Assembly (NCBI RefSeq): GCF_026151205.1
Contig: NC_087076.1
Location: forward strand, 4,425,902-4,489,901
Direction: 5' to 3'
DNA: 64,000 bases
Source: Bolinopsis microptera
Lineage: Eukaryota > Ctenophora > Tentaculata > Lobata > Bolinopsidae
Shown here: one piece after another, positions 6,017 through 56,236 of the stretch
Numbering within the stretch: position 1 is the stretch's first letter
Layout of the letters: every line of letters begins with the position of its first letter
Program-made: the position numbers and the translations under genes
Notes under the pieces: generated by a model
Told to the model about the DNA's origin: nothing
The model's database searches: none
The model's input: only the letters and a program-made list of their open reading frames with translations

Positions 6017-51873
<45,857 letters not shown>

Positions 51874-53941: not shown

Positions 53942-56236
53942 TATAAAATGAAGAATTATTTTTGTACGACTCCGCCCATGTGCAAATTCTGCGCATGTGG
54001 TCATTGTAAAGTTTGCTTTGCCCAAATTTGACTGCCAAAATTGGTACAATTTGACCGGTTGAGCTATTCAGTGAGCTAGCATGCCACCTGGTGTTCACCC
54101 TTTGTTAATATTTCACCCAGATGGAAACAAATGTTCACTGGACACTTTAACATGTAATCTATATGTGTTACTCAGCCAATGTGGAGCATATCAGTGCTTC
54201 AAAGTGACATTTTAAAACTTTTTGCAATCTCGTTGGTAACTGAATCTGGCAGTCAAAACAGGTTGAGACTCTCAGAAAAAGGTCCCATCTACACAGAAAG
54301 CCCCGGTTGAGACAACTTTTAATGCTCAGCCTGTGTGCAGCAGTAGCTTGAAAGTTAGGCAATTTTCAAGACCAAAAATCATACGCTAAACAGTCAAGTT
54401 TTTGGTTGAAACTCTATGAACTTATTAGCTGAAACCCCTCTCAAGAGTTTTTGACTATTTTCGATAACACACCATGTCTCAACCGACGTGGAGCGAGGTT
54501 TTGGCAATGTAGAAATTTGTAAATTTTTAATTTATTAGCTTTTCATAATGCTTTTGTTTAGATCTGTAAGATTTTTTTAGCTTGGTAACTCTTACTAACT
54601 CTATTTTGAGTACTGAAACGGATATTTATATTCAGTACACTTCTCTCAACCCTGTGGAGCCCAAAATGGTTAAAAATTTGCCAACTTTTAAATTCTTTCT
54701 GGGTTAAGATAAAGTGACTTCTGTGATTTACATCTTGACTCCTGTATCTATATTTTCACCGTTGATGCAGACTCTTTAGTCGAGAACAGCCTATCTCAAC
54801 CATGTGGAGCAAAAAGAGGTCTTCCTTTTGATCAATCGAGACAACTTTTAAGTGCTTCATGGGATATCATTTTTATTCATTCTAGAGAAAATATGTTATA
54901 ATATTGGTGGTCAATAAACTTACTTCATGGGAACTATTCAGTGCTCAACCTGTGTGGAGCAGAGATGATTTCTGTTGTATTAGATTTTCGAAGCTCACCG
55001 CAGACCAATATGTAGTTGACCAAATAAAGTTTTACTCAGTTTGACTCTATTATTTTTTGTCATTTCTAGCTCTGCTCCACTCTGGCTGAACAGTTCTGGA
55101 ACATCAATCATGGTAAGAAAAGTATTTAAAGTATATCAGTAAACTTTAAATTGCATTACGTACAAATTCGCTACAGATCGACCATCATGGAGCTGGAGAC
55201 TCTTTTTACCGTAGAAAAGCCTGTTGCTCCTCACGGTTGAGCATATTGTCTTTTTCTATGGTGGCATATTTCTCTTTAAAGGACACAGTACATTTTTAAA
55301 CAGAGGGTTTAGTTTTCTTAACTCAAGTTGGCGTTAGGTTGTTTTAAGCTTGATTTGATCTATTGATATTCTATGAATTTAAGCTCTACTCCTCTCTGGT
55401 TGAGCCTATTAAATACAATTTTTCAATCTGTTCTGCTAGTAATTTATTTTAAAAGCTAAAATACTCATTCTAATTTCTCATCCAAGTCATATCAGCCGAT
55501 GAGGAGTCATGTTATGCAGTAAAAGTCCTCTGCTCCACATGGTTGAGCATTACTAGGTTTATCAGCAGTTCCAAAGAATAGAGTCAGGGGGTCTGAACAT
55601 AATCACAAGAAAAAATTATATTTTTATGGCCTGATTAGATGTATTTATCGTTTTTAATCACACTCACTTTCAAAACTCAGTTTCTTCCCAATCAGTATTC
55701 CCAACTAAGGTATAATAGTTTCGTGCTCCGCATCGGTTGAGCAAGGTGTACCATTATTGATTATGTTATCTGGTGCGTATTCCTTTAAACTAAGATTTTG
55801 TGAAAAGACGGAGATTCTACTGTAATGTTTACCCCTGGTTGAGACGAAAAATATGAGGATATTTCGACTGCTCCACACTGGCTGAGGTCCATTTTATGAT
55901 TTGTCAGTGAAAATATTTTGCAATTAACGTCCAGGATCTATTTGTTAAATGGCGATCAAAATAGTCAAAAAGCATAGATTTTATTTAATTGGGGTGCTCC
56001 ACACTTTTTTGCTCCACATCAAAAACCAGGTCATAACTTTTGCTCCACATGAGATAGAAACTTCATTCCAAAGAATTCAGAAAATTCGGAATCTTCAGAT
56101 GAAAATGATATCAGAAAGGATTAAATTGCTCTTTATCAACCTGCTCAAAAATTTAAATCAAAAAGTAAGCAAAATGGGCAAAGCAAAATTGACAATGACC
56201 ATGTGCAAACATTTTGGAACTTCATTTATATCGGTT
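53942..56236. mobile_element. 2.3 kb element with array of inverted 17 bp motifs
   Basis: Imperfect inverted ends: 53942-54026 against 56170-56236, sharing the core TGGTCATTG and TTTGCTTTGCCCA. Between them, CTCAACCnnnGTGGAGC-like motifs recur. Six face one way (54171, 54325, 54478, 54645, 54795, 54943), then six face the other way (55074, 55226, 55389, 55532, 55725, 55870). Partial copies flank them. No coding frame recognised. Confidence 0.6.

Follow-up and report, generated by a model that had tools for sequence, protein, structure and literature searches.

A stretch of 64,000 nucleotides from Bolinopsis microptera, referred to here as the window (G000:C5:4425902-4489901 of the 264.65-Mb genome), contains between positions 53999 and 56200 a young non-autonomous DNA transposon of the cut-and-paste type, which has terminal inverted repeats and is without coding capacity. 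Its arms probably function as extended recognition ends, each bearing a train of regularly spaced putative binding sites for a protein that acts in trans. Listed in Table 1 are the features of this element, the window copy of what is designated family A. The earlier note, in naming a transposase and an autonomous relative, had implied a mobile element, and indeed it can be assigned as a transposable element because it has inverted-repeat ends and a 4-bp duplication and because 15 array-bearing copies are located at different places.

Table 1 Features of the family A element (positions are those of the window)
Feature	Position	Strand	Remarks
Target-site duplication ATGT, left	53995..53998	.	
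Whole family A element	53999..56200	+	2202 bp, non-coding; same borders in 15 array-bearing copies, different flanks
Left terminal inverted repeat GGTCATTGTAAAGTTTGCTTTGCCCA	53999..54024	+	26 bp
Site 1 CTCAGCCAATGTGGAG	54171..54186	+	
Site 2 CTCAGCCTGTGTGCAG	54325..54340	+	
Site 3 CTCAACCGACGTGGAG	54478..54493	+	
Site 4 CTCAACCCTGTGGAG	54645..54659	+	
Site 5 CTCAACCATGTGGAG	54795..54809	+	
Site 6 CTCAACCTGTGTGGAG	54944..54959	+	
Spacer block 1	54998..55057	.	Between sites 6 and 7; unlike the 11 other uninterrupted A copies; limits by eye
Site 7 TTCAGCCAGAGTGGAG	55075..55090	-	Orientation switch between sites 6 and 7
Site 8 CTCAACCGTGAGGAG	55227..55241	-	
Spacer block 2	55292..55384	.	Between sites 8 and 9; unlike other copies; limits by eye
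Site 9 CTCAACCAGAGAGGAG	55389..55404	-	
Site 10 CTCAACCATGTGGAG	55533..55547	-	
Site 11 CTCAACCGATGCGGAG	55726..55741	-	
Site 12 CTCAGCCAGTGTGGAG	55871..55886	-	
Right terminal inverted repeat	56175..56200	-	Minus strand GGTCATTGTCAATTTTGCTTTGCCCA; near-perfect inverse of left
Target-site duplication ATGT, right	56201..56204	.	

The exact ends, GGTCA...TGACC, are common to the family A copies. A query of 2301 bases yielded 11 other full-length matches, which start at query bases 54-60 and end at 2261-2266. The limits first proposed for the element, 53942 and 56236, were too wide by 57 and 36 bases, respectively, and an outer inverted repeat at those limits was looked for and could not be confirmed. 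The right flank displays a 75% match to positions 13885-13928, probably by chance. The longest stop-to-stop frame in the window copy encodes 84 amino acids. In all 15 array-bearing copies the 4-bp duplication is perfect, with the sequences being ATAT (five copies), TTAT, TTAA, and AAAT (two each), and ATAA, ATAC, ATAG, and ATGT (one each); the middle two bases are TA in 12 of the 15. No empty insertion site was found with the joined flanks of the window copy in the part of the sequence searched.

Allowing for three or fewer mismatches, the family A end occurs at 35 places in the genome, namely 17 pairs and one single end on C9, as compared to one place for the reversed control. Fifteen of the pairs hold the array, three of these being interrupted by other elements, and the remaining two (L074 and L075) are 412-bp derivatives with intact ends and no array. 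Given that their flanks are near-identical, L074 and L075 may represent a single insertion, and the array-less form either moved itself or arose through later deletion. The 11 uninterrupted copies besides that in the window differ pairwise by 0.31-1.57% with a mean of 0.89% (gaps uncounted), and the family has therefore moved recently. The window copy and a consensus built from the other copies are 95.9% alike. As for the genome-wide arrangement of the sites, which the earlier note had proposed to check, the copies are not random: 12 sites in the order ++++++------ are present in 11 of the 12 uninterrupted copies (window included), and the remaining one, L072, has lost a site and retains 11. 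Among the three interrupted copies all 12 sites are kept in two, and 10 in L062. Note that the right end carries left-type sequence in L062, L074, L075, and L048, the last of which is a family A fragment with a gap of 153 bp where other copies have 145 bp. In two copies (L061:2036-6603 and L062:1249-5807) the interruptions lie at nearly the same point, only a few bases apart. That in L061 is a non-LTR retrotransposon, and that in L062 has the inverted ends CGGGTATCGGCC and TA flanks and includes a reverse transcriptase frame.

The site itself is bipartite, with the half-sites CTCAACC and GTGGAG separated by two or three nucleotides, and the 12 sites in A are arranged such that six point inward from each end. 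When scored with a spacer of 1-5 nucleotides and two or fewer mismatches, the window copy and the A consensus have 12 sites each and a second family, B, described below, has 10; dinucleotide shuffles (60 each) gave means of 0.12-0.15 sites and a maximum of one. All twelve motifs originally reported were recovered within one base of the starts given for them, and the six-plus-six orientation switch is as described. The length of the motif is not always the 17 bp claimed because the spacer between the half-sites varies, being three nucleotides in eight of the A sites and two in the other four (54645, 54795, 55227, and 55533). The half-sites are near-inverses of one another (CTCAAC versus CTCCAC), and thus form a slightly asymmetric palindrome, the asymmetry of which gives each site its direction. 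The centre-to-centre gaps are 154, 153, 166.5, 150, 149.5, 131, 151.5, 162.5, 143.5, 193.5, and 145 bp. Their evenness (coefficient of variation 0.099) was equalled in none of 200,000 random placements, and in this respect the regular spacing is upheld, whereas the figure of about 150 bp covers a range from 131 to 193.5 bp, such that the pitch cannot be called rigid. The gaps show weak helical phasing (Rayleigh p about 0.03). Throughout the genome there are 430 places with a site at one or fewer mismatches versus 30 with the reversed pattern.

Most of the difference between the window copy and the consensus is confined to spacer blocks 1 and 2, the flanks of which are near-identical to those of the other copies. 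All 12 sites survive despite the two swapped blocks, and the gaps that contain them fall short of their consensus lengths (131 versus 146 bp and 162.5 versus 176.5 bp). A genome search with window positions 55287-55386 revealed no relatives of block 2 and matched only itself. Gap repair with filler DNA after excision would be one possible origin of the blocks. It is not very unlikely that both of them would have missed the sites by chance.

The search for sites uncovered family B, the members of which are ∼1.53 kb in length. An example is L076:651-2181, which is 1531 bp long, has the inverted repeat GGTCAAGTTCGGAGACAACCTGTACAT, and contains a longest stop-to-stop frame of 109 amino acids. From the 40 of 65 candidates that were scored, there are at least 39 near-complete places, the query's own included, that are at least 97% alike. 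The B ends in the genome number 60 left and 62 right and form 59 pairs, 56 of which are 1489-1645 bp long and three longer. As for the four unpaired ends, L080 corresponds to a full copy and L081 to a truncated copy, and the other two lie at C2:14900813 and C11:15935932. The 4-bp duplication is perfect in four of the five B copies read with both ends. Both families have GGTCA ends, duplicate 4 bp at the target, and carry the site in an inverted layout; in B the order is ++++-+----, such that one site is out of order. One B copy is inserted within another (G000:C6:16055392-16058467), and another seemingly lies inside a retrotransposon reading frame (L080:1-106, judged by eye against the L061 frame).

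The two families also agree in the register of the sites as counted from the ends. In the left arm of A the first three sites are located at 180.5, 334.5, and 487.5 bp and in the right arm of B at 180.5, 334.5, and 486.5 bp; the fourth sites, at 654 and 640.5 bp, differ by 13.5 bp. The first three values are constant in all 12 uninterrupted A copies and in all five B copies read, the copies within each family being young and therefore not independent in this regard. With a null model in which the first distances were random and the gaps were drawn from the pooled gaps, the A-left/B-right match has a probability of 1.6e-4 per comparison, four comparisons being possible. For A-right (317.5, 462.5, and 656 bp) and B-left (326.5, 469, and 662 bp) the agreement is only to 6-9 bp, and among the B copies the position of the first left site varies by up to 5 bp. 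In both pairings, A-left with B-right and A-right with B-left, the spacers are alike only at the level of shuffled sequences. A one-arm register kept to within one base across dissimilar spacers is a natural hint that it is the spacing which is retained, and it suggests that the spacing counts in the movement or packaging of the element. If confirmed, this would offer a direct means to ask whether transposases read chromatinized DNA at nucleosome pitch. The array looks like a set of protein sites because the site, its orientation, and the one-arm register are all kept in B between spacers that differ. The suggestion of binding sites for a protein such as a transposase is thus supported as to the sites, and not as to the identity of the protein.

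It might be argued that A and B share this layout only as ancient relatives whose lengths happened to stay, which we consider improbable. The ungapped identity between A-left and B-right outside of the sites does peak at shift 0 over 700 bp (33.6% versus 27.6%, sd 2.1), which may hint faintly that the two arms descend from a common ancestor in that orientation; when 350 or 520 bp are compared, however, shift 0 does not give the top value. With spacers at background many changes in length would be expected, and the intervals still differ by just 0, 0, and 1 bp, a comparison that assumes an ordinary rate of insertion and deletion. Even less probable is the notion that the array descends from a ∼153-bp tandem repeat of which a single box is left. 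The even pitch near 153 bp would fit, as would two repeated pairs in A, each 80% identical (a 30-nucleotide pair at 55215/55521 and a 25-nucleotide pair at 54682/54842). The claim that the sequence between motifs is not conserved nevertheless holds in large part, for the spacer-spacer alignments score only slightly above single-base shuffles (17.2 versus 16.5 with an sd of 0.36 in A, and 17.7 versus 16.0 with an sd of 0.61 in B). This excess, a further point for a tandem origin, is small, Tandem Repeats Finder reports no tandem repeats at a score of 50 or above inside the A element, and a plain tandem array would keep one orientation rather than reverse in the middle.

In another explanation, which must be taken into account but which we hold to be rather unlikely, the sites bind a host transcription or architectural factor such that the element is expressed, opened, or insulated, and have no role in transposition. 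The sites are internal rather than terminal and fill most of the element, and the ends of placozoan Mutator elements carry a loop-anchor motif (PMC12221973). Among the first 100 of the 430 site places, though, 94 lie inside A or B copies and six outside (placed by hand), an odd distribution for a general host factor, and end recognition is favored both by the inward-facing sites and by a register that is measured from the cut ends. The ctenophore loop motif of the same paper has two CpGs (PMC12221973) and the half-sites observed here have none; a link between the two was dropped on this basis.

If the arms of A are indeed extended recognition ends, an enzyme encoded elsewhere would move the element in trans, and each arm would consist of a short terminal repeat for cutting followed by a train of bipartite sites ∼150 bp apart. 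Each site would be occupied by the transposase that the element lacks, or by a DNA-binding protein that acts with it, and binding as a dimer is probable because the sites are bipartite and near-palindromic (CTCAACC / GTGGAG). Being approximately one nucleosome apart, the sites might be gathered in each arm into one folded, and probably nucleosome-bearing, two-arm complex, with the spacing selected since the sites must line up within it. The mirror order could tell the complex which way each end faces and in this manner set the pairing of the ends. The ends of DNA transposons are usually thought to be recognized within tens to a few hundred bases; in A, a site train of ∼1 kb fills each arm.

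Several known systems display parts of this arrangement. The CENP-B boxes of alpha satellite are 17-bp sites for a transposase-derived protein and have a nucleosome-related spacing, but they belong to a tandem centromere satellite, whereas A carries an inverted array in a mobile element. In Spm/CACTA and Ac many short subterminal transposase sites are found inside the ends; these are clustered within a few hundred base pairs, whereas in A most of the element is lined with single sites at ∼150-bp steps. The closest working analogue may be Galileo, a member of the P-element superfamily from Drosophila which has multiple THAP sites in long inverted repeats, with transposase sites at about 70, 561-577, and 701-718 bp (PMC3688188). 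Its authors propose that many sites confer enzyme specificity (PMC3688188). Both elements have several sites, putative in A, far inside of the ends, but the inner sites of Galileo reside in tandem repeats within long inverted repeats (PMC3688188); the arms of A are not mutual inverted repeats beyond the ends, have six sites each, and are associated with a 4-bp duplication. The coral CMITE elements likewise form non-autonomous families with interiors more alike than their ends, although they are ∼100 bp long with a contiguous conserved interior and a TTAA duplication (PMC2872659), and A keeps only spaced short sites. A search of the open-licence literature yielded no published description of such an array.

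The autonomous relative with the array and a transposase that had been suggested as a check was not found, either with the A and B end sequences (three or fewer mismatches) or among the copies read. The long copies inspected as candidates were L059-L062 and, from the three longer B pairs, L078. L061 was rejected as it holds a retrotransposon frame with reverse transcriptase and endonuclease, L062 because its insert, flanked by TA and bounded by inverted ends, has a reverse transcriptase frame, and L078, a B copy, because of a reverse transcriptase frame. L059 and L060 were likewise rejected: their 6.9-kb insert includes a 557-residue frame that has no Pfam match but looks, on visual comparison, like the frame preceding that in L061, and the insert was accordingly taken for a retrotransposon. 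The inserts in L060 (near 2790), L061 (near 6590), and L078 (near 4210) end in two tandem units of ∼15-20 bp, which differ among the three.

With respect to superfamily, the duplications of the P element and Galileo are 7-8 bp in length, and membership there was rejected given the 4 bp observed here. Kolobok elements duplicate TTAA. The same duplication is given for piggyBac (PMC2872659), and both assignments were rejected because TTAA occurs in only two of the 15 array-bearing A copies. Chapaev (CMC) termini, listed as CAC...GTG (PMC4079192), are unlike the GGTCA...TGACC ends, and this assignment was also rejected. For Sola2, short inverted repeats and AWWT duplications of 4 bp (ATAT, AAAT, and ATTT) are described (PMC3627910). 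Family A is similar in having short inverted repeats and AT-rich duplications, which are 4 bp long in all 15 copies and conform to AWWT in seven (ATAT five times and AAAT twice); six of the A duplication sequences (TTAT, TTAA, ATAA, ATAC, ATAG, and ATGT) fall outside of AWWT. No Sola transposase was seen in the element, and the comparison covers the duplications and the presence of short repeats.

Searches for related arrangements elsewhere gave mixed results. A two-site pattern was found at 70 places in the genome versus 41 for the reversed control, and because the control is this high satellites are likely to be included. The places comprise the A copies, a 21-bp satellite at C1:25853823-25854675, singles at C1:26092281 and C7:337483, and five places at C6:11185303-11187704, including a plus-strand run at 11186595/11186749/11186903 with gaps of 154 and 154 bp. 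The satellite (G000:C1:25853823-25854675) is built of a ∼21-bp unit, CTCAACAAGGGAGGAGGGGCC, that is site-like in sequence but unrelated in layout. GGTCA combined with a site occurs at 22 places (two in the control), of which 15 are A ends and one is an additional start in such an end. The other six, in which the site lies at a like distance, may be new families or chance; two of the six have a distance of 174 bp (C3:20814848 and C6:13727171) and two a distance of 163 bp. Single near-perfect sites without an array occur in L001 and L005, which match each other at 87% over 3 kb. Elsewhere in the window are a long foldback at 13772-14550 with 217-nucleotide inverted arms that are 100% complementary, a 274-residue frame at 30594-31418 matching rhodopsin-type receptors (Pfam 7tm_1, E 3e-17), a 21-bp tandem repeat of 22 copies at 44217-44684 with overlapping frames of 173 (plus) and 152 (minus) residues, and ∼560 bp of GAGG repeats at 46943-47506 with several open frames.

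The spacers carry one further signal. Across the 16 spacers that lie within the arms of A and B, the AA/TT/TA/AT steps recur with a 10.2-bp period phased to the inner site. This rhythm was reached by none of 2000 random spacer rotations and none of 1500 draws of window DNA, and the G/C steps are roughly antiphase to AA/TT (0.0033). With the outer site as the anchor the rhythm is weaker (0.0345 by rotation). Rotation within each family gives 0.056 for A and 0.001 for B. Of the four arms, both right ones show the signal strongly (0.0027 in A and 0.0007 in B), and both left ones lack it (0.57 in A and 0.44 in B). Tests on the whole element gave 0.005 for A, with the peak at 10.8 bp, and 0.075 for B at 10.2 bp. 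Since the test was devised after the spacing had been seen, with two anchors tried, the rhythm is rated as only suggestive. A G+C periodicity of 140-175 bp was rejected as a feature of the array, the flanking DNA being equally strong in this regard. The idea of a structure tuned to nucleosome spacing accordingly gains an A/T rhythm phased to the sites, but in only two of the four arms and by an after-the-fact test.

It is conceivable, though on balance we doubt it, that the whole element is a chromatin ruler with one protein site per nucleosome, selection on pitch and not on sequence, nucleosome-positioning DNA between the sites, and arms that the bound protein zips together as mirror images. 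If this were true, family A would represent a class of transposon end built on the scale of the nucleosome.
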